The position numbers and the translations under genes are program-made. DNA of 64,000 bases from Microbacterium sp. AG1240 (GTDB lineage: Bacteria > Actinomycetota > Actinomycetes > Actinomycetales > Microbacteriaceae). Of the stretch, positions 47,869 to 62,975 are shown in pieces; the first letter of the stretch is position 1, and each line of letters opens with the position of its first letter. The notes under the pieces were generated by a model. It saw only the letters and a program-made list of their open reading frames with translations, searched no databases and was not told where the DNA came from. The stretch is taken from NCBI RefSeq assembly GCF_003635115.1, contig NZ_RBXJ01000003.1:11324-75323 (forward strand), given 5' to 3'.

Positions 47869-48990
47869 CTACGACGCTCGCCGGTTCCGACTCTCAGTGA
47901 TTGCGCGTTCGAAGGCGTCCGAGGATGCTCGATCCATCTGGCTTGCGAGGTGCTGGTACTTGAGAGCGGCGGCATCGGTGGAGTGGCCAGCACGGGCCTT
48001 GATCTCTTGCGACGGGAGGCCGGAATAGGCCAGCACGGTCAACCCGGTGTGCCGGAGGTCGTGGAATCGGAAGTGCGGCAGCCCCACCGCGTTGCGGGCG
48101 CGTTTCCAAGCCGAAGCGACGTGCCAGTGCCGCATGGCGGTACCGTCCGCTCGGAGGAAGACCCGGTCGTTTGGGCGGTGCAACTCCTGACGCAGCAAGG
48201 CGCATGTTTCATTGTCAATGCTGACCGTGCGTGCCTTATTGCTCTTGGTTGTGGTCTCGATCTGCTCGCCTGCGACCTCACTTACTGAGCGGCAAACCCT
48301 GATGGTGCGGGCGTCGAGGTCGACGTCACCCCAGCGCAAGGCGAGTGCCTCCCCCAGTCGCATCTGGGTGTGGAGGGTGACATTGGCTAGACGCCCCTCG
48401 GGGGATGTCATATGGGCGATGATCGATTCGGCCTTATCCAGGCTCATGAACGGGCGCGAGTCGTATGCGTCTTGACCAGCACCTTTGATGCGGCAAGCGT
48501 TCGTACGGATGATCTCCTCCTCGACTGCCATGCTGAGGATGGCGCGGAGAAGTGAGTAGACCTGTCGGCGGAGGGAGGAGCTGCCAGGCAGCTGTGCGTG
48601 CCAAGTGCGGACAGCGGCCAGGGTAACTAGATCGAGAGGGCTTTCGCCAAACGAAGGCAGGATGTATCTCTGCAGCTGCCCGTCCGCCAACTGGCGCGTT
48701 CGCGGCTTGACCGGTCCCCCACCACGGCCTCGGCGCACCAGGTGGAAGTGCTCAATGTACTGACCCAGTGTTGGGGCCCGGTGATTTGGATCCAGCCAGG
48801 TCCGGTCCTCCTGTTGGATGCGAATGCGGTTCAGGGCCGCATCAGCGTCGGTCTTGGTTCGAAATGTGCCCTTGACGGCTCTCGCGGTTCCGTCCGGGGC
48901 TGTGTACCGAGCTAGGAACCGGCCCGAGGGGAGCTTCTTCACGTTGCCGAAGGTACGGCGGCTTGCTCGTCTTGCAGATGCGTCGGCCAT
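47869..48990 (-). CDS. Tyrosine recombinase (island integrase)
   Basis: The protein is 373 aa. I start at ATG 48990 (AAGGAAAG upstream). It has an N-terminal AP2-like arm-binding domain (GRFLARYTAPDG with FRTKTDADAALN), a core-binding domain (TLGQYIEHFHLV to NACRIKG) and a catalytic domain with R in QMRLGEALALRW, HDLRHTG (H-x-x-R), GHS and the nucleophile Y in ALKYQHL. Likely catalyses integration at the tRNA-Gly 3' end. It is placed mid-island (over 4 kb from either att site), which is unusual since integrases normally sit next to one end. Confidence 0.93.
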   Translation of the reverse strand: MADASARRASRRTFGNVKKLPSGRFLARYTAPDGTARAVKGTFRTKTDADAALNRIRIQQEDRTWLDPNHRAPTLGQYIEHFHLVRRGRGGGPVKPRTRQLADGQLQRYILPSFGESPLDLVTLAAVRTWHAQLPGSSSLRRQVYSLLRAILSMAVEEEIIRTNACRIKGAGQDAYDSRPFMSLDKAESIIAHMTSPEGRLANVTLHTQMRLGEALALRWGDVDLDARTIRVCRSVSEVAGEQIETTTKSNKARTVSIDNETCALLRQELHRPNDRVFLRADGTAMRHWHVASAWKRARNAVGLPHFRFHDLRHTGLTVLAYSGLPSQEIKARAGHSTDAAALKYQHLASQMDRASSDAFERAITESRNRRAS

Positions 48991-49138
48991 CTTGTCTTTC
49001 CTTAGGTGCTCCGCGTCGTGCGCGGCTACTCGTACTACCTGTGAACGCGTGGTCGAGACCGCCCTGATGAGCAATTCACAGAATCTCGTCGCTACCTTGT
49101 GGTCGCTTTGCTTCCACGCTGGAGCGGCCTGAGGCGTG

Positions 49139-49711
49139 TCAGGCGATCAGAAGCTTGGCGGCTTCGAATGCTCGGTAGACGGTGGCTCGGGAGCACTTAA
49201 GCGTGGAGGCGATCTCGGATGGACTAAAACCCGCCTCACGGAGGCTCCATGCCTGACGGATCTTGGCTTCGTCCAGTGCCCGTGGGCGTCCAGTCTGCTT
49301 TCCTCGAATACGTGCGGCCTCGCGTGCAGCCTCGGCACGCTCGCGGATGAGGGCTCGTTCATACTCGGCAAGGGAGGCGAAGATGCCGGCGAGCATCCGG
49401 CCGACGGGCTGAGTGAAGTCCACCCCCTCGCGAAGCGACCGGACGAGTATGCCCCTGCTTTGGAGCTCCTCGATGGTGAGGATGACGTGGGTCATGGAGC
49501 GACCCAGGCGGTCGAGTGCCACGACGGTGATGGTGTCACCTTCTCGTGCGTACTCCAGGAGGGTCTTCAAGCCGGGACGATCGGCTCTCGAACCACTCAT
49601 TACGTCTTCGAAGATCCGGGTCACTCCGGCGGCTTCGAGTGCGTCCCGTTGCTGGTCGGTGGTCTGCTTACTTGTGCTGATTCGGGCGTAGCCGATCTGG
49701 TGGTTGCTCAC
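49139..49711 (-). CDS. Small serine recombinase (resolvase/invertase family)
   Basis: The protein has about 190 aa. The catalytic domain has IGYARISTSKQ (nucleophile Ser), the VVALDRLGRSM segment with conserved Arg residues, and an E helix; the C-terminal HTH is FSPSEIASTLKCSRATVYRAF. GTG 49711 lies 5 nt after TATGAT; a TTG at 49717 is an alternative start. An inverted repeat overlaps its promoter. It could resolve dimers, invert a segment or be left from another element. Two recombinase types in one small island suggests a composite origin. Confidence 0.9.
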   Translation of the reverse strand: MSNHQIGYARISTSKQTTDQQRDALEAAGVTRIFEDVMSGSRADRPGLKTLLEYAREGDTITVVALDRLGRSMTHVILTIEELQSRGILVRSLREGVDFTQPVGRMLAGIFASLAEYERALIRERAEAAREAARIRGKQTGRPRALDEAKIRQAWSLREAGFSPSEIASTLKCSRATVYRAFEAAKLLIA

Positions 49712-49719
49712 GTCCAATC

Positions 49720-53704: not shown

Positions 53705-54487
53705 TCAGGCCGGGGCGAGACGACGAGTGTTGGCGCGCACCGAGGGTAGTCGGCGCCGGTGCAGCACGATCTCGCGCACCGCGGTGATGCGGCGGCGCAG
53801 GCCCCAGACGGTGACGTTCCACAGCGACTCTCGGACGATGCCGCCGCTCATCTTGCTGACGCCGTGCTCGCGCTCGACGAAGGTGATCGGCACTTCGACG
53901 ACGCGCAGGCCGCGCTCGAGCCCTCGCCAGAGCAGGTCGAGCTGGAAGCAGTAGCCCTGCGACGCGACCCCGTCCAGTCCGATGACGTCGAGAGCGCCGG
54001 CGCGGAACGCGCGGTAACCCCCCGTCGCATCGCGCACGTCGATCCCGAGGGCGAGGCGGGCGTAGAGGTTTCCGCCGACGCTGAGGGCCTTCCGGTGCAC
54101 CGGCCAGTTCACGACGCTCCCGCCCGGCACCCATCGCGACCCCAGCACGATGTCGGCGTCGGCCAGCTCGTCGAGCATGGTCGGCAGCGATTCGGGCTGG
54201 TGCGAGCCGTCGGCGTCCATTTCGACGAGCACGTCGTACCCGCGTTCGCGGCCCCACGCGAAACCGGCGAGGTACGCGCGGCCGAGACCGTCTTTCGCGG
54301 TTCGGTGGAGCACGTGCACGCCGGGATGCTGCGCGGCGAGGCGATCGGCGAGCACACCGGTGCCGTCGGGCGACGCGTCGTCGACGACGAGAACGTCGGA
54401 GCGTCCGACGGCGAGCACGCGATCGACGATCGCTTCGAGGTTCTCGATCTCGTCGTAGGTGGGGATGACGGTGAGCGCGATGTTCAT
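53705..54487 (-). CDS. Polyprenyl-phosphate mannose synthase-like GT2
   Basis: The protein has 260 aa. GT2 motifs: [39 protein letters not shown], the metal-binding [12 protein letters not shown] (DAD) and [16 protein letters not shown]. This is the catalytic Dpm1/Ppm1 form without membrane domain. It makes polyprenyl-phosphate-sugar (usually mannose), the donor used by GT-C enzymes such as the one at 57091. It lies 43 bp after the GH8-sortase gene and probably belongs to the same operon. Confidence 0.9.
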
Positions 54488-54530: not shown

Positions 54531-56138
54531 TCAGGCTGCCACGGCGGTGACGACCACGTTGTCGACGTAGTGCCCTGTCTGGGGGTCCCACGCGCCGCCG
54601 CAGGTCACGAGCCGCAGTTCCGGGGTCGGCACCGGGGCGTAGATCGACTCCGTCGGGAAGCTGTCCTTCTCCACCGCCTGGATGCCGGTGACGACGAAGT
54701 CCGCCGTGCTGCCGTCGCTGCGGGAGACGGAGACGGTATCGCCCGGGACGAGCTTCGGAAGGTCGTAGAAGACAGCGGGCGCCGTCGGGGAATCGACGTG
54801 CCCCGCGATCACCGCCGGTCCGATGGCGCCGGGCACGACGCCGTTCTCGTACCAGCCCACGGCGTCGAAGTCGGCAGGGGCCTCGATCCAGCCGTCGGCG
54901 CCCAGCCCGAGGCCGATGAGGTCGGAATCGACGCCGATCGCGGGAATCGAGATGTGTTCGGGAGTGGCGTTCGACGCCGCCGCCGGGGCGACCGGGTCTT
55001 GGAACCCGTCGGCAGCGGAAGACGAGGCGCCCGCCGCCGACGTCGCCGCCTCGAGCGGTGGGCATCCTCCCAGCACGTCGTCAGTGAGCATCGCGCCCGC
55101 GAGGGCGCTCCACGCATCGCCGTAGTACGTCGGCGTCGCCACCGCCGTCTCGGTCATGCGCGAAAGATCGTCCCGCGCAGCATCCGTGCTCGAATCCGCC
55201 GCGTACGCGGCGGCGCGCGCGGCGTACGCGACGGGATGCTGGTCGCTCGTCACTGCCCCGGCGCCCGAATCGAGCTCGGCCGGCAGCTCGTCGCCCTCAG
55301 GCAGGGCGGCGGCGATCCGGGCTGCCACCGCGCGGTCGGCGGGGTCGCACGACTCGGCGTAACGGATCGATGTGCGGGTGGCGTCGTAGCCGTATCCGGG
55401 CTCGCCCTCACCGCTCGCCGAACCGGCGATGGCGACCGAGCCGTCGGCGGCGACCGTGGCCCAGTTGGTCGGAAGCGCATTGACGTCCAGGAGCGCCTCG
55501 GTCGCGGCTCGACTGCCGCTGGCGAGCTCATCCCACCGAGCGTCTCCCGAGGCATCCGACAAGACGGCGTACGCCGCGGGCGAGGAGTACGACGGGTTGT
55601 ACGCGTGCGGGGATGAGGTCGCCCACGGCCCCGGCAGGAGGATCCGCCCGATCTCGGTCGACGCCGTCATCTCGTCGAGCAGCGCCTCGCCCAGCGCGAC
55701 GCCATCCTGTCGAAGGTCATCCCGCCCGAAGGCGTCGCCGGCGAGTACGAGAGCGCGCGCAGCGTCGAGATCGGCGTCGGAGGCCGGCTGGTCATCGACC
55801 ACGGCCCCCTCCTGCCACCGCCACGCGAGCAGGAGATCGTCGCGCTGCAGGTGAGTGGTGGTCCACTCCCAGATCTCGTCGAAGGTCTCCTCGTCGTCGG
55901 CGGCGACGGCGAGGAGCAGGCCGTACGCCTGTCCCTCGCTCACCGTGTCACCGCCCTGGTCGGTGCGCACCACGCGCCCGTCGTCGGCGTACTGCTCGAG
56001 GAAGTCCGCCGCCGCCGAGGCGGATCCGTCCGTCTCTTCGGAGACCGGCTCGGCGACCGGGCCCGCGCACGCCGCGGCCACGAGGGCGACCGCGACGGCG
56101 ACGGACGATGCGGCGAGCGCGCGCCGAAGGCCGATCAC
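54531..56138 (-). CDS. Lipoprotein fusing GH8 glycosidase and class F-like sortase
   Basis: The protein has 535 aa from GTG 56138 (overlapping the DUF4397 stop, GTGA). A lipoprotein signal peptide ends VAAAC (C24). Residues 60-360 show GH8 motifs: [15 protein letters not shown] with the proton-donor Glu (E68), [16 protein letters not shown] (D121-D125), [13 protein letters not shown] and [13 protein letters not shown]. This is the BcsZ/endo-glucanase family. After a Ser/Ala/Pro linker, residues 393-535 form a sortase of the small actinobacterial class F type, with the catalytic His in AGHVDS (H447) and Cys in RLVTCGG (C513). A glycan-cutting domain joined to a transpeptidase suggests cutting and anchoring of an exported polysaccharide or protein. 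No such combination is known to me. Confidence 0.85.
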
Positions 56139-57034
56139 ACGGTTCCCGAGGTGGCGTGACGACGACGCACGATCAGAGCGACGACGGCTCCTCCGAGGAG
56201 GAGTCCCGCGGCCGCGACGCCGCCCAGGGCTCCGGTCTGACCGTTGGCCGTACCGCCCCCGCCGGTGTGGATGCCGCCGACGGGCATGTCGGCGAGAGTC
56301 GCGGAGTCGGTGATGGCCTGCGCGGTCAGCGCACCCGCAGCGGTATCGAGCACGAACAACGTCGACACCGAGCCCGCGGGCAGGTCGACCGCGGAAGACG
56401 ACACCGCGTCGGCTCCGGTCAGCTCGAGGTCCCACTCACCGGCGGCCACGGAGGCATAGCCGGTCGCCGCGCCGGTCGGAACCTCGCGGGCGATCGAGCG
56501 GCCTTCGACGGTGTCGACGTCGACGCGGGGTTCGACGGTCGACGCCTGTACGACACGCACGCGCGCCTGCCCCTCGGCGGGGGCGGAGAGGTCGTCCTGA
56601 AAGACGGTGGTCTGGAGGTCGTCGTTGCGACCGTATGCGGCGACGGTGACCGGCCCCCCGGCGGCGACGTCGACCGACTGCTGCACGATCGGTTCGGCGT
56701 CGTCCGCCGCATCCGACGGCACCATCGAGACGACGTAGGTCCCCTCGGCGAGCGGGATGTAGTCGCTCACCGCGCCGTACGCGACGTCTTCGAGCTCGTA
56801 GACGACAGCACCGCCCGATAGAGCGGTCATCTGCACGTCGACCGACTTGGTGTCGGGTGAGAGGTGGGCGACGCGGGCCCACCCGCCGGGCTCGGTGGGA
56901 GCGGCGGATGCTGCGGGCGCGACCGCGACGCCGAAGGCGACCGGGAGGACGGCCGCGGCCACGAGGGCAAGGCCCCGGACACGGCGCCGAAGGGTGGGCC
57001 GCGCGGAGTCGGGAGTGGAAGCGTTCGGAATCAT
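56135..57034 (-). CDS. DUF4397 protein, exported and membrane-anchored
   Basis: The protein has 299 aa; ATG 57034 has GAAAGGAT upstream. A twin-Arg-rich N-terminus leads into a signal peptide ending ASAAP. Two DUF4397 beta-repeats follow (VAHLSPDTKSVDVQMTAL, and ARVRVVQASTVEPRVDV). The C-terminus is a Gly-rich linker, a hydrophobic helix and RRRH, an anchor resembling sorting signals but without a clear LPxTG (VGGIHTGGGG precedes). It is coupled to the GH8-sortase gene by a GTGA overlap, so it is a natural candidate substrate or partner of that sortase. Confidence 0.82.
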   Translation of the reverse strand: MIPNASTPDSARPTLRRRVRGLALVAAAVLPVAFGVAVAPAASAAPTEPGGWARVAHLSPDTKSVDVQMTALSGGAVVYELEDVAYGAVSDYIPLAEGTYVVSMVPSDAADDAEPIVQQSVDVAAGGPVTVAAYGRNDDLQTTVFQDDLSAPAEGQARVRVVQASTVEPRVDVDTVEGRSIAREVPTGAATGYASVAAGEWDLELTGADAVSSSAVDLPAGSVSTLFVLDTAAGALTAQAITDSATLADMPVGGIHTGGGGTANGQTGALGGVAAAGLLLGGAVVALIVRRRHATSGTV

Positions 57035-57090: not shown

Positions 57091-59100
57091 TCACGCCGCG
57101 GGTCGCGGCAGCAGGTTCACCGGTTCGACGGGAGAAAACGTGATGACCACCCCCGCATCGCTGCGCACGGCGGACAGGGGCGCCAGCTGGCCGGTGAGGG
57201 ATTCATAGAAGCGCAGTGCCGCGTCGGAACCCGGGCCATCGGCACGCGCGTCCTCGCCGGCGAACGCGCTGATGACCAGCTGACGATGCACGCCGGAGGG
57301 ATCGCCGTCGAGCTGGACGATGTCGGCGATGTCGATGCGTCCGATGGCGGCGAGCTGGCCGAGCGTGAGCAGGATGCGGCCGTCGACGACGCCCGAGGTG
57401 AGCAGGTCCTGCTCCTCGGCGGGGACTCCGACCGCGGGGTTCTGCAGCAGCTGCTGGCCGGCGATCGACCGCGCGGCGTAGAGGCCGTCGTCGCTCGCCT
57501 GCGCCAGACCCGACTGCTCGCTGTCGATGAAGCGCACATCGACCTGCTGCGCACCCTCGCCGAAGGAGGCGACGACCACACTGTTCTCGATCGCCTGGCT
57601 CACCGTCGGGAACTCCGTCGGGAAGGTGCGCATCGAGTCGGTGGTGACGACGTAGTCGTAGTCCCGCCACCCGTCGGGGGCGAGCGCCTGCACGTCGGAG
57701 TCGGTGTCGGCCTTGTAGTACCAGACCACGTTCTCGCGGGTGAAGCCCTCGTCGACGAGATCGACCCACATGGCGTCGTCGACGAGCATCCGGGAGTCGG
57801 CCGCGGCGTTCTCGGCCATCCAGGTCTCCGCGTCGCGCAGCGGACGGTCGAGGTCGGCGAGCAGGAAGCCGCGCAACTGCGCCGTCCAGAGCGGAGCGCC
57901 CGCCACCAGCGCGATGACCAGGCCGGCGGCGACACCGGCACCGCCCACGCGGGAGAGCAGCCGATGCCGAGTCGTCCGGGCGCGAACGCGCTCGACGGCG
58001 ACCTGTCCGATCCCGGCGACCACGATCGCCGCGAACGGCAGCAGCATGATCACATACGGCACGGGGAGGTACCCGCCGCGGAACATGAACGCGGTGAGCG
58101 CGAGCAGGGTGATCGCCCACGGACGCAGGCGGCGCACGAAGAGCGCCGCCACCGCCGCCGCGAGAGCGGCGATGATCAGCACGGAATCGAGCTGCCACCA
58201 CATGCCGACGGTGCGCGACATGAGGCTGTCGGGGTCGAACAACGATCCGCTGCCTTCGCGGGAGGCCAGCTGGAATGCCAGCCCTTCGAAGAGGCTGACC
58301 CGACCGGCGCCGGGAGCGACCTCGCCCTTGACGAGCGCGAAGGCGACGTAGGTCAGTCCGATGAGAACCAGCACCGCCGATGCGACGGAGAGCGTATAGC
58401 GACGCGTCGTGCGGTCGGCGCCTCGCCACATGAACCACGCGATGAGCGGCAGGGCGAGGAGGTAGGTCTCCTTGGTCAGGACGGCGATACCGAATGCCCC
58501 CGCCGCCCCGATGTACCCGAGCAGCTGCTTGCGCCGGCTCATCGCGAGCAGGAGGGCCCCGAGAAGCCACGCCGTCGCGATGTTGTCGAGGTACACCTGG
58601 CGGTGGAACTGCACCGCCAGCGGCGACAGCAGGAACAGCGCGGTCGCGACGGATGCGGTGAGTCGTGCGAAGCCGATGCGCCGCACCAGGAACCACAGGA
58701 GGATCCCCGCGATGGCTGTCGCGACGAGCATGGCCTCGCGCGCCGCGACGACGGCGACGTCGTGCCGGTCCCACGCCCCCGTCAGACCGGCGTACCCCGC
58801 GATCTGAATCCACCCGAGAGGCGGATGGTCGTACCAGTACGTGTAATGGGTGAGCTCGCCGAGGTTGCCGATGGCCCAGGCCTGCGCGGTATAGGTGCCC
58901 TCGTCGTCGATACGCTGCGGCGAACCGCCGAGATTGATCGCGTTGACGACCATGCCGATCGCCAGGGCGGGGAGCAACCAGGCGAGGTCGGTCAGCCGCG
59001 CACGCCAGGAGCCCCGGGGGAGCGTCGCCGCCGTACCGCCGGCATTCGCGGGCGGCACGGGAGCGGACGCGGTGGGCGTGCGTTCGAGCGTCGAGGTCAT
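57091..59100 (-). CDS. GT-C membrane glycosyltransferase (ArnT/PMT-like, GT39/GT83)
   Basis: The protein has 669 aa. ATG 59100 overlaps the GT2 stop (ATGA). A first loop with RIDDEGTY (D65-D66-E67) after helix 1 is the GT-C metal/catalytic motif, and YWYDHPPLGW follows, typical of ArnT/PMT enzymes. About 11 membrane helices reach residue 440; the last 230 residues are a soluble extracytoplasmic domain. It should transfer a sugar from polyprenyl-phosphate-sugar (see the synthase at 53705) to a polymer or protein outside the membrane. Confidence 0.88.
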   Translation of the reverse strand: MTSTLERTPTASAPVPPANAGGTAATLPRGSWRARLTDLAWLLPALAIGMVVNAINLGGSPQRIDDEGTYTAQAWAIGNLGELTHYTYWYDHPPLGWIQIAGYAGLTGAWDRHDVAVVAAREAMLVATAIAGILLWFLVRRIGFARLTASVATALFLLSPLAVQFHRQVYLDNIATAWLLGALLLAMSRRKQLLGYIGAAGAFGIAVLTKETYLLALPLIAWFMWRGADRTTRRYTLSVASAVLVLIGLTYVAFALVKGEVAPGAGRVSLFEGLAFQLASREGSGSLFDPDSLMSRTVGMWWQLDSVLIIAALAAAVAALFVRRLRPWAITLLALTAFMFRGGYLPVPYVIMLLPFAAIVVAGIGQVAVERVRARTTRHRLLSRVGGAGVAAGLVIALVAGAPLWTAQLRGFLLADLDRPLRDAETWMAENAAADSRMLVDDAMWVDLVDEGFTRENVVWYYKADTDSDVQALAPDGWRDYDYVVTTDSMRTFPTEFPTVSQAIENSVVVASFGEGAQQVDVRFIDSEQSGLAQASDDGLYAARSIAGQQLLQNPAVGVPAEEQDLLTSGVVDGRILLTLGQLAAIGRIDIADIVQLDGDPSGVHRQLVISAFAGEDARADGPGSDAALRFYESLTGQLAPLSAVRSDAGVVITFSPVEPVNLLPRPAA

Positions 59101-60605
59101 CGGTTCTCCTCCGAAGCGGCGGCGGGGACCAGCTCGGCAGAAGCGGGTCGAAGCGCGGACGACGTCGGGGCCGAGGAATCGCGGTGCGCCCCGGTGTGCT
59201 CCGTCTTCTCCCAGCTGCCGTCGCCGCGCAGCTGCCGGACGACCGATCGCACGGCCGCCGCGGCGAGGAAGATCTGGTAGGGCACGAGACCGAGCACGAG
59301 CTTGACGTAGTCGCGCACGCGCACCTTCTTGGCGTACACACGTCCGAACTCGGTGAGCCCGGCGGCTTCGGCGACGAGAGTGATGACGGTGGGCACCAGC
59401 GGAAGGAAGGTGATGAGCGCGACGACCGTCGGCACCTTGACGAGCAGGATGAAGGCCACCGAGATCGGGATCAGGATGCCGGTGGCCGCCTGCAGGAACG
59501 GCATGTTGAGGAGGTAGCGGGCGTACATGCGCTGGCGGAGGGTCGGGAGCTTCTTCCACTCGCCCTTGCCCAGCACCTGCAGGAAGCCCTGGTTCCAGCG
59601 CGTGCGCTGCTTGTACAGCGATTTCAGCGTCGGCGGCGTCTCCTCACGGGTGACGTACTCGGGGTTGTAGGCGACGACGACCTTGGCCCCGTCGCTCGAG
59701 AGGCGCACACCGAGCTCGCAGTCCTCGGCGAGGCACTGGTCGTCCCACCCCTTCGACCATTCGAGGCGGTCGCGGGTGACGAAGACGGTGTTACCGCCCA
59801 GGGGGATGAATTTCGACCGCGCGTGGAAGTGCAGGCGCGAACGGAACCAGAAGTAGTACTCCAGCACGTTGCGCAGCGACCACCAGCTCGTCTCGAAGTT
59901 CATCAACTGCACGCCGCCCTGGACGACGTCGGCGCCGGTCTCCTGGAACTTCGAGTCGACGACGGTGAGCAGACCCGGATGCACTTCGTCCTCGGCATCG
60001 AAGACGCCCACGACGTCACCGGTCGCGATCTCAAGCGCGCGGTTCAGCGCCTTCGGCTTGTTCTTGGGCACGCTGTCGTCGACGACCACCTTGATGAGGC
60101 GGGGGTGGCGAGCCGCGGCCTCGCGAACGACGAGCTCCGTGCCGGGGTCGTCGTGACCGACGATCGCGATGATTTCGAAGTCGGGGTGGTCCTGCTGCGC
60201 GAGGCGGTCGAGGGTCTGCCCCATGACCTCCTCCTCATGACGCCCGGGCACCAGGAGGGTGAAGCGATGGCGGGCGGGGCGCGGCGAGGAGCTGAACTGC
60301 GTGGCGCGGAGGTCGTCGGCCGATCGCCAGGCGTGCAGCATCCACCACAGCGTCGTCGTCGCGACCGCGGTGAGCAGCAGCGCCAGAACGATGATGCCGC
60401 TGTAGCCGAGCCACTCGCCGATCGACCAATCGGGCAGGAATCCTCCCATCACGGAGGTGCCGGACTGCGCGGGGACGGGCACGTCGGTCACGCCGGAGGG
60501 CTGCTGCCCCGGCGCTGGGGCGACGGGGGTGAGGAGGGGTTCGGGGGTCTGACCCGGAGCGGTCTGGGCGAGAAGAGACACGGGTGCGTCGAGGGGCGGG
60601 ATCAC
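59097..60605 (-). CDS. Processive GT2 (cellulose synthase-like)
   Basis: The protein has 502 aa. An N-terminal Pro-rich stretch precedes one helix (65-90), then the GT-A domain with D-x-D region VFDAEDE (201-207), AEDCE (293-297) and QRTRW (333-337), and further helices (360-450). D,D,D,QxxRW is the signature of processive GT2 synthases such as cellulose and hyaluronan synthase. There is no PilZ domain. Together with the GH8 domain protein this mimics the BcsA/BcsZ pair. GTG 60605 overlaps the stop of a 51-aa ORF (GTGA). Confidence 0.9.
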   Translation of the reverse strand: MIPPLDAPVSLLAQTAPGQTPEPLLTPVAPAPGQQPSGVTDVPVPAQSGTSVMGGFLPDWSIGEWLGYSGIIVLALLLTAVATTTLWWMLHAWRSADDLRATQFSSSPRPARHRFTLLVPGRHEEEVMGQTLDRLAQQDHPDFEIIAIVGHDDPGTELVVREAAARHPRLIKVVVDDSVPKNKPKALNRALEIATGDVVGVFDAEDEVHPGLLTVVDSKFQETGADVVQGGVQLMNFETSWWSLRNVLEYYFWFRSRLHFHARSKFIPLGGNTVFVTRDRLEWSKGWDDQCLAEDCELGVRLSSDGAKVVVAYNPEYVTREETPPTLKSLYKQRTRWNQGFLQVLGKGEWKKLPTLRQRMYARYLLNMPFLQAATGILIPISVAFILLVKVPTVVALITFLPLVPTVITLVAEAAGLTEFGRVYAKKVRVRDYVKLVLGLVPYQIFLAAAAVRSVVRQLRGDGSWEKTEHTGAHRDSSAPTSSALRPASAELVPAAASEENR

Positions 60606-60757: not shown

Positions 60758-60958
60758 GGACGGGGCGGCTGCGGCGGCGCTCCCGGTGTTCCTGATTTCT
60801 TCCGTATCGATATTCGTCCGCACGGGTGGTGATGCGGAACGAACACGGAGACGGTTTGGAGCGGTCAGGTGTTTGCCAGGGTGGCGAAACCCTCTGTTCA
60901 CCTGCGGATGGCCCGCTCGCGGTCGCGAATCCGCTTATGCGGAAATATGATGTGCCTC
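60758..60958. promoter_or_regulatory. Divergent promoter region, polysaccharide operon and mod operon
   Basis: It contains a TATGAT box (60946-60951) that lies 7 nt before the TOBE regulator ATG (leaderless). The A/T-rich stretch around 60795-60817 is the likely promoter area of the minus-strand polysaccharide operon. No clear operator is visible. Confidence 0.5.
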
Positions 60959-61366
60959 ATGACGCAGATTCGTATCCGAGACGCGGCCGCGTTTCTCGCC
61001 GTGAGCGACGACACCGTTCGTCGGTGGATCGAGGTCGGCGTGCTGGAGAGCACGCGGGATGCGTCCGGACGCACCGTCGTCGACGGCCTCGCCGTCGCCC
61101 TCCTCGCCCGGAAGAACGCCGTGCTGCCGGCGGACCCCTCCGAGATCGGACGATCCGCCCGCAATCGGCTCGTCGGCGTGGTGACCGATATCCGTATGGA
61201 CACCGTCATGGCGCAGGTGGAGATGCAGTGCGGTCCCCACCGGATCGTCTCGCTCATGAGCAGCGACGCGGTGCGCGAGCTGGCGCTCGAACCCGGGTCC
61301 GTCGCGATCGCCGTCGTGAAGGCCACCACGGTCATCATCGAGACCCCCGAAGCGAAGGCCCCGTGA
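60959..61366 (+). CDS. HTH-TOBE molybdate-responsive regulator
   Basis: The protein has 135 aa. Residues 3-50 form an excisionase-like HTH (IRIRDAAAFLAVSDDTVRRWI, then GRTVVDGLAVALL), and residues 70-130 form a TOBE/Mop domain (RNRLVGVVTDIRMDTVMAQVEM, LEPGSVAIAVVKATTVIIE) that binds molybdate. ATG 60959 lies 7 nt after a consensus TATGAT. Its TGA overlaps the modA ATG by one base, so it heads the modABC operon and probably senses Mo to control it. Confidence 0.9.
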   Translation: MTQIRIRDAAAFLAVSDDTVRRWIEVGVLESTRDASGRTVVDGLAVALLARKNAVLPADPSEIGRSARNRLVGVVTDIRMDTVMAQVEMQCGPHRIVSLMSSDAVRELALEPGSVAIAVVKATTVIIETPEAKAP

Positions 61367-62142
61367 TGACCCGCATCTCCACGCTCGCGGCGACGCTCCT
61401 CGCCGCCGCGCTCACCCTCACCGCGTGCGCCGGGGGAAACGCGCCGACGAACACCGCGAAGACGGAGGGTTCCATCACCGTCTTCGCCGCGGCATCCTTG
61501 ACCGCGACATTCACCGAGCTCGCGGCGGAGTTCGAAGCCGCGAACCCCGGCACGACCGTGCAGCTGACCTTCGCCGGCTCCTCCGACCTCGTGACGCAGA
61601 TCACCGAGGGCGCCCCCGCCGACGTGTTCGCCTCCGCCGATGAGAAGAACATGACGAAGCTGACCGATGCGGCCCTGATCGACGCCGACGCCCCGGTCGA
61701 CTTCGCGACGAACGTGCTCGAGATCGCCGTGCCACCGGGCAACCCCGCCGGTGTGACGACTCTCGCCGATCTCGCCGACCCGGCGGTGAAGACCGTGATC
61801 TGCGCCGCACAGGTTCCCTGTGGAGCTGCGACGGCCGCCATCGAGCAGGCAACAGGTTCGGACATCGTTCCGGTCAGCGAGGAATCATCGGTCACCGATG
61901 TGCTCGGCAAGGTCGTCTCGGGCGAGGCCGACGCCGGACTCGTCTACGTCACCGACGTCATCTCAGCCGGAGACGCCGTCGAGGGGATCGAATTCGCGGA
62001 ATCGAGCGAGGCGGTCAACACCTACCCCATCGCGGTGGTGAAGGACTCCGCCCGCCCCGACGTCGCCGCGGCGTTCGTGGCGTTCGTCACCGGCTCGGTC
62101 GGCGAAGATGTGCTCTCCGCCGCCGGCTTCGGGAAGCCGTAG
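61366..62142 (+). CDS. modA: Molybdate-binding lipoprotein ModA
   Basis: The protein has 258 aa. The lipoprotein signal ends LTLTACAGG. The mature chain has [22 protein letters not shown], the molybdate contacts [24 protein letters not shown] (Ser residues), and [29 protein letters not shown], all typical of ModA. It delivers molybdate or tungstate to ModBC. Confidence 0.95.
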
Positions 62143-62150
62143 GCGACCGC

Positions 62151-62975
62151 ATGGCACCCCGGAGAACCTCCCCTTTCGCGGGCGTACCCGCGTGGGTCGT
62201 CGCCATCGCCGTCATCGGTGCCGCGTTCGTCGTGGTGCCGCTGGTGGCGATGATCTCCCGCGTCAACTGGGCGGAGTTCTTCCCACTCGTCACCTCGCCG
62301 TCGTCGATGGACGCGCTCTGGCTGAGCCTTCGCACGTCGCTCACGGCGACGGCGCTGTGCATCGTCGTCGGGGTGCCGATGTCGCTGGTCCTCGCGCGGA
62401 CGCGCTTCTGGGGGCAGAAGATCCTGCGGTCGCTGGTGCTCCTCCCCCTCGTGCTTCCGCCGGTCGTGGGAGGAATCGCGCTGCTCTACACCTTCGGGCG
62501 GCGGGGACTCCTCGGGCAGCACCTCGAGGTTCTCGGGATATCGATCGCCTTCTCGACCACCGCCGTCGTCCTGGCGCAGACCTTCGTCGCCCTCCCCTTC
62601 CTGGTGCTGAGCCTCGAGGGCGCCCTGCGCACCGCCGGCACGCGGTACGAAGCGGTCGGCGCCACCCTCGGAGCCCGCCCCACGACCGTGCTGCGCCGCA
62701 TCACCCTGCCGCTCGTCCTCCCCGCGGTGCTGTCGGGCGCGGTGCTGTCGTTCGCGCGGGCCCTGGGCGAATTCGGGGCGACGCTGACGTTCGCCGGATC
62801 CCTGCAGGGGGTCACGCGCACCCTGCCGCTGGAGATCTACCTGCAGCGCGAGACCGACCCCGACGCGGCGGTGGCGCTGTCGCTGGTGCTCGTCGTCGTC
62901 GCCATCATCGTGGTGGCGATCGCCCATCAGGCCGGCGAAGCGCGCCTCCCCCGGCTCGGGAAGGTGCGCTCGTGA
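62151..62975 (+). CDS. modB: Molybdate ABC transporter permease ModB
   Basis: The protein has 274 aa and five to six membrane helices. The EAA-type loop [25 protein letters not shown] and the [19 protein letters not shown] segment are characteristic of ModB. It starts 8 bp after modA; its stop overlaps the modC GTG (GTGA). Confidence 0.95.

Follow-up and report, generated by a model that had tools for sequence, protein, structure and literature searches.

The minus strand of the window, by which we mean the whole stretch of 64,000 nucleotides analysed here, carries an operon in the order GT2 synthase, GT-C glycosyltransferase, DUF4397 surface protein, GH8-sortase fusion and polyprenyl-phosphate sugar synthase. 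The GT2 and GT-C genes overlap by 4 bases, as do the DUF4397 and fusion genes, where the GTG start of the fusion overlaps the DUF4397 stop; the other two gaps measure 56 and 43 bases. The fusion, at 54531-56138, is one gene for a predicted lipoprotein of 535 residues, in which a disordered linker connects a GH8 domain to a class F sortase domain. A sequence-only reading of this DNA had placed a GH8 glycosidase and a sortase within one lipoprotein at these coordinates. The coordinates are correct, the gene lies on the minus strand, and the domain composition is borne out by Pfam, NCBIfam, a lipobox-like pattern and an AlphaFold2 model. The features of the locus are as follows.

59097 to 60605, minus strand: GT2 synthase with DAED, AED and QRTRW motifs (Pfam Glyco_tranf_2_3, 138.7 bits; alignment).
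57091 to 59100, minus strand: PMT-like GT-C membrane glycosyltransferase (Pfam PMT, 21.7 bits, just under the cut-off of 22.7; conserved in cassettes); its ATG start at 59100 was read from the gene junction.
56135 to 57034, minus strand: DUF4397 surface protein (ATG at 57034) with beta-sandwich domains and a C-terminal sorting signal (PF14344, 118.3 bits; pLDDT 85.4).
56255 to 56284, minus strand: sorting motif PVGGIHTGGG, with a hydrophobic stretch and RRR behind it (motif scan).
54531 to 56138, minus strand: GH8-class F sortase fusion, 535 aa, GTG start at 56138 (Pfam, NCBIfam, AlphaFold2 model).
56067 to 56138, minus strand: signal peptide with lipobox-like AAAC, Cys24 (read from the sequence).
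55113 to 55988, minus strand: GH8 domain, residues 51-342, with E68, the D121-D125 region and D252 (Pfam PF01270, alignment to 1wzz and CelA, 1wzz fold match).
54990 to 55037, minus strand: disordered linker, residues 368-383, model residues 344-359 (pLDDT below 50).
54540 to 54953, minus strand: class F sortase domain, residues 396-533, with H447, R509, C513 and N527 (Pfam, NCBIfam, alignment, fold match).
53705 to 54487, minus strand: polyprenyl-phosphate sugar synthase-like GT2 (Pfam Glycos_transf_2, 97.3 bits).

The AlphaFold2 model of the fusion, built from an alignment of 104 rows, has two confident domains joined by a floppy linker (mean pLDDT 93.1, pTM 0.69). Pfam assigns residues 51-342 to GH8 (113.1 bits, cut-off 24) and residues 396-533 to the Sortase family (73.6 bits, cut-off 26.6), and the class F sortase model of NCBIfam (NF033748) gave 182.3 bits with a cut-off of 166. 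In a Foldseek comparison with the PDB, the top match of the model was CMCax of Acetobacter xylinum (1wzz; E 7.4e-19, TM 0.80 by target), followed by other GH8 enzymes including CelA and BcsZ, and by sortases from rank 48. A lipobox-like pattern, judged by pattern match only, is present at the N-terminus of 24 of 25 distinct fused proteins, L009 being the exception.

The residues listed in the sequence-only reading (E68, D121-D125, H447 and C513) are all present; D252, the aligned base within YDATR, was missing from that list. In the alignment, E68 and D252 fall on SEG and YDATR of 1cem, and we take this Glu and Asp to have the catalytic roles of their CelA counterparts. E68 is conserved in 69/69 GH8 rows (66 distinct) and D252 in 67/69, with Glu in its place in L026 and L050. 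H447 and C513 are conserved in 77/77 sortase rows (74 distinct). Loss of catalytic residues in homologues, which had been named as an outcome that would speak against the fusion's function, was thus not observed for E68, H447 or C513.

The sortase head carries Asn (N527) at the position expected for the last-strand arginine, as do all 77 rows; this position was placed by reading the alignment, as the solved-structure alignments end before it. By the same reading of the 77-row alignment, the canonical last-strand Arg of the His-Cys-Arg triad is absent from the fusion. In 76/77 rows an Arg (R509) stands at Cys-4, four residues ahead of the catalytic Cys. Class F sortases from other families show the same arrangement, with Arg at Cys-4 in 28/29 and the Asn in 27/29 (25 by pattern, L171 and L178 added by eye); L169 and L175 have Ser. 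Our guess from the alignment is that R509 could take over the work of the usual arginine. An excerpt of PMC13257024 assigns His-Cys-Arg to all sortases and gives LPXTG as the signal used by the class F enzyme of Cutibacterium acnes, and according to a figure legend in PMC8361268 the triad is conserved in 5UUS, a class F structure. Either these statements speak against the substitution or they refer to more distant enzymes; the latter may apply to 5UUS, because it matches the window's sortase profile at only 19.6 bits.

The fusion therefore shares with class F sortases the NF033748 score, the Cys-4 Arg and the last-strand Asn, and differs from them in that its sortase sits C-terminal to a glycosidase and would be anchored through the lipoprotein end of its partner. 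Transpeptidase activity of this head is predicted. The source genome has three class F-like sortases, of which only the window's exceeds the model cut-off. According to an excerpt of PMC13251363, deletion of all four class F sortases of Actinoplanes missouriensis gave no visible phenotype, which weighs against the role proposed below.

On genomic grounds the sortase goes with the DUF4397 protein, because the signal is encoded next door and occurs once in the genome: the only occurrence of GG[VI]xTGGG (or GGMxTGGG) is in the cassette's DUF4397 gene, with 0 in the backwards control. The pattern P.GG[VI].TG.G stands exactly near the end of 86/95 distinct DUF4397 frames and in a looser form in 8; frame L074, which ends early, has neither. 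Among 6,517 frames (those of the fetched loci, re-fetched genomes included), 130 carry the pattern within their last 90 residues, and the reversed motif gave 0. Of these 130, 12 have no DUF4397 BLAST match or belong to a locus outside the BLAST; a profile identifies L174 and L179 as DUF4397, with L177 matching weakly. Pfam, run on 8 of the 12, placed 2 in CHRD over the cut-off and 2 just below it, called 1 ice-binding-like, and gave no match for 3. The same C-terminal signal was thus seen on other neighbours of class F sortases, namely CHRD proteins (L003, L084) and an ice-binding-like protein (L163), and L166, L173, L177, L178 and L182 are further signal-bearing neighbours with weak CHRD matches or no Pfam match.

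An exclusive pairing of DUF4397 with class F sortases was considered and rejected: within the roughly 1.5 kb flanks of 29 fetched class F loci from other families, only 4 had a DUF4397-like frame, two of them strongly. In the source genome, two of the three class F-like sortases have a motif-bearing neighbour, and the third lies beside a DUF4397 gene whose product ends differently. This second DUF4397 gene (contig C2, about 1160-2550; L150, L005) ends without GGxxTGGG, and the sortase beside it has Val, not Arg, at Cys-4.

The DUF4397 protein resembles GVDTG sorting-domain proteins in its C-terminal GG[VI]xTGGG, hydrophobic stretch and basic tail, and its score of 27.2 bits against GVDTG_CTERM (NF058571, NCBIfam) falls just under the cut-off of 29, with the motif present. 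In contrast to GVDTG proteins, 55/94 distinct relatives with the motif lack a hydrophobic tail behind it, as judged by simple hydropathy. Counting the DUF4397 C-termini of L004-L138 and L190, with related genomes counted individually, we found the tail in 26/26 distinct fused cassettes (two of these rows being the window's own genome), as well as in G743 (L190). It was present in 7/53 frames counted as split, including the broken fusion of G273 (L112) and the borderline L121; the 46 other split frames have the signal and a short helix-less end, an uncommon arrangement among sortase substrates. Two more split cassettes, L191 and L192, also have a tail. The DUF4397 model is a beta-sandwich whose best matches are the PepT2 extracellular domains 5a9h and 5a9i (TM 0.68 and 0.72 by target), with far weaker matches to adhesin-like folds. 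We assign no function from the fold.

The operon is a conserved gene set. The identical order, with the two enzymes as separate genes, was found in Curtobacterium, other Microbacterium and other genera; the Nocardioides loci differ. This conserved cassette, together with the family matches, supports the earlier proposal that a processive GT2 and a DUF4397 protein bearing a C-terminal anchor belong to one gene set. To count its members, we took distinct DUF4397-sortase cassettes whose upstream sequence reached at least 4.5 kb and dropped shorter flanks and identical sortases, which left 68. An intact GT2 was present in 53/55 cassettes with GH8 versus 0/13 without GH8, and the sugar synthase in 42/55 versus 1/13. 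Genomic evidence therefore ties GH8 to GT2, although the tie weakens after correction for kinship: on starred (well-supported) branches there were 5 independent pairs, of which on average 4.4 agreed and 0 were opposite (sign test, median p 0.125). Three exceptions were noted. L046 has its GT2 elsewhere in its genome; G040 (L138) has GH8 and no GT2 match at 1e-40; and G338 has GT2 and GT-C elsewhere with no GH8 in the 1.5 kb flanks, its DUF4397-sortase cassette also being GH8-less. The only GT2 homologue in the GH8-less group (L135 / L189, G198) is devoid of DAED, AED and QRTRW.

Cellulose was considered as the product and is not claimed. The cassette GT2 shares with BcsA the motifs D, D, ED and QxxRW, and the first GT2 profile hit BcsA at 119 bits, but that profile contained the cellulose-synthase-like rows L048 and L056. 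Once these, L051 and the degenerate L135 were removed, only 30.7 bits over about 100 positions were left of the BcsA match, and the best match became 6yv7, another GT2 (54.9 bits). Unlike BcsA, the cassette GT2 also scored far below the NCBIfam cellulose synthase model CelA (24.6 bits, cut-off 699.1). The sugar synthase reached 62 bits with NCBIfam AglJ, below the cut-off of 325. As for the GH8 head, it has in common with BcsZ and CMCax, the GH8 enzymes of cellulose synthase operons, the fold, the catalytic residues, a GT2 synthase nearby and predicted secretion; unlike these, it has a predicted lipid anchor and a fused sortase. Its score against the BcsZ equivalog PRK11097 (NCBIfam) was 120.7 bits with a cut-off of 299, and among the five operon proteins no Pfam match to a BcsB or BcsC family was found, in contrast to BcsZ and CMCax systems.

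In some actinobacteria, then, the cassette seems to serve two ends, the synthesis of a sugar polymer at the cell surface and the anchoring of a surface protein. We consider it probable that the fusion is a lipid-anchored enzyme with two catalytic heads that trims the polymer and anchors the DUF4397 protein within a conserved actinobacterial surface-glycan cassette. The GT2 would make and export the polymer, and the polyprenyl-phosphate sugar synthase and GT-C might add sugars on the outside, either to the polymer or to the DUF4397 protein. On its exit from the membrane the polymer would meet the GH8 head, which would trim or release it in the way that BcsZ and CMCax act on cellulose. The class F sortase head would recognise P-x-GG-[VI]-x-TG, cleave the DUF4397 protein there and join it to the cell wall, the presumed acceptor. 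Tethering by fusion would put trimming and anchoring at one exit site.

Against this stands first the possibility that the fusion arose by read-through within the operon, losing the GH8 stop and the sortase signal, and that its product still acts like two separate enzymes. Among the split and fused relatives listed, the sequences, compared by eye, agree with such an event. Where the genes are split, the sortase starts with a signal of its own, either a lipobox or a membrane helix, and a GFQDP-like element comes next; GH8 there frequently has an N-terminal membrane helix. In the fused protein, the GH8 end (GGCPP or similar) runs through a variable Ala/Ser/Gly-rich linker, modelled as disordered, into the mature sortase start (GFQDP or similar); the sortase signal has been dropped, and the lipobox now precedes GH8. 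Gene order is unchanged in split relatives, and outside the lineage most relatives have two separate genes. The existence of split relatives shows that the fusion is dispensable for the gene set as such.

The distribution of the fusion bears on the same question from both sides. At 1e-45, 42/366 genus genomes match, of which 25 (window included) have a single open frame across both domains, 1 has a broken fusion (G273), 10 have separate GH8 and sortase genes and 6 have the sortase only. The separate genes are adjacent in 9 of the 10 split genomes; in G478 the sugar-synthase gene lies between them. In a family sample of 199 genomes, the fusion occurs in 2 (the window's own and G090, of another genus), versus a strong separate GH8 match in 16. 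An order sample of 396 genomes added G743, from another family; in G868, two pieces abut but differ in reading frame. Among loci from named genomes, 12/51 are fused (L007-L016, L020, L053). However, the fused state has been kept in the 25 genus genomes, and dN/dS in 11 comparisons with fused relatives was 0.07-0.19 for GH8 and 0.11-0.22 for the sortase, at or below 0.22 in both domains, which argues against a neutral event. The best GH8 and sortase trees each give 2 fusions, and the concatenated tree including L190 needs 3, with starred branches forcing 3, which likewise speaks against a neutral event. A single fused clade is not rejected by any of them (p 0.226, 0.623 and 0.126 for the GH8, sortase and concatenated trees), and for the sortase the tree held to a single clade was better by 7.25 log units. 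A fixed number of origins is therefore not proposed: the best trees say 2-3, and the one-origin constraint is compatible. Overall, we judge a fusion with no new function to be unlikely, though with an appreciable chance of being correct.

A second alternative concerns the acceptor: the sortase might join the DUF4397 protein to the GT2 glycan and not to peptidoglycan, yielding a protein-polysaccharide conjugate. The presence of a synthase, a cutting enzyme, a signal-bearing protein and a sortase in one cassette is consistent with this, and the sequence-only reading had proposed covalent attachment of a polysaccharide at the surface, which we only infer. The conjugate would need an amine on the polymer, of which there is no sign here, and we know of no sortase that uses an amine-less glycan as acceptor. 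In addition, 15/68 DUF4397-sortase pairs occur without an intact GT2 nearby. These points make a conjugate distinctly improbable.

The GH8 head might instead be a nutritional or wall-remodelling glycosidase that lies in the operon by chance. Its PDB relatives comprise chitosanases and xylanases as well as endoglucanases, which would allow such a role, but the closest solved relatives are CMCax and a Komagataeibacter endoglucanase, membrane anchoring is predicted, and GH8 goes with GT2 across cassettes. Distant GH8 relatives likewise follow a GT2 directly in L048, L055, L056 and L057, loci without a match to the window's sortase; L048 and L056 also have a PMT_2 GT-C. We therefore regard a chance association as very unlikely. 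Finally, a sequencing or assembly error that joined two genes through a missed stop or frameshift in the linker, raised as a risk in the sequence-only reading, can be dismissed, because the search for the same fusion that it had suggested recovered a frame open across the linker in independent genomes (25/366 of the genus, G090 and G743); nothing was found in support of such an error, and the frame break inside the GH8 domain of G273 (L112, L130) is the opposite type of defect.

Returning to a two-headed enzyme that trims and anchors, a more specific version can be put forward tentatively. One tethered enzyme would cut the new glycan and covalently anchor the protein that carries or holds it, setting length and wall attachment in one place, with P-x-GG-[VI]-x-TG as a natural class F signal within a defined pathway; we think this fuller version rather doubtful. 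According to an excerpt of PMC13251363 (2026), what class F sortases do physiologically is still unknown, and an excerpt of PMC5148588 gives sorting signals for classes A to E and none for F. The cassette offers a candidate substrate, a candidate signal and a candidate pathway for these enzymes. GH8 and class F sortases are both known kinds of protein; the novelty is the merging of a synthase-plus-GH8 operon with a class F sortase and its neighbouring substrate. Judged by titles and the beginnings of abstracts, no publication among the literature matches listed concerned a GH8-sortase fusion or the cassette. The fusion may serve as a Rosetta Stone, linking the putative trimming enzyme of a glycan synthase to surface-protein anchoring.

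Two further features flank the operon. A few kb from the cassette, at 47869-49717 on the minus strand, lie integrase-like and resolvase-like frames, named by eye from their translations. On the plus strand at 60869-62975, divergent genes resemble those for molybdate uptake. The first encodes a TOBE-domain protein whose MerR match in Pfam is sub-threshold, and the binding protein and permease that come next were named by eye.
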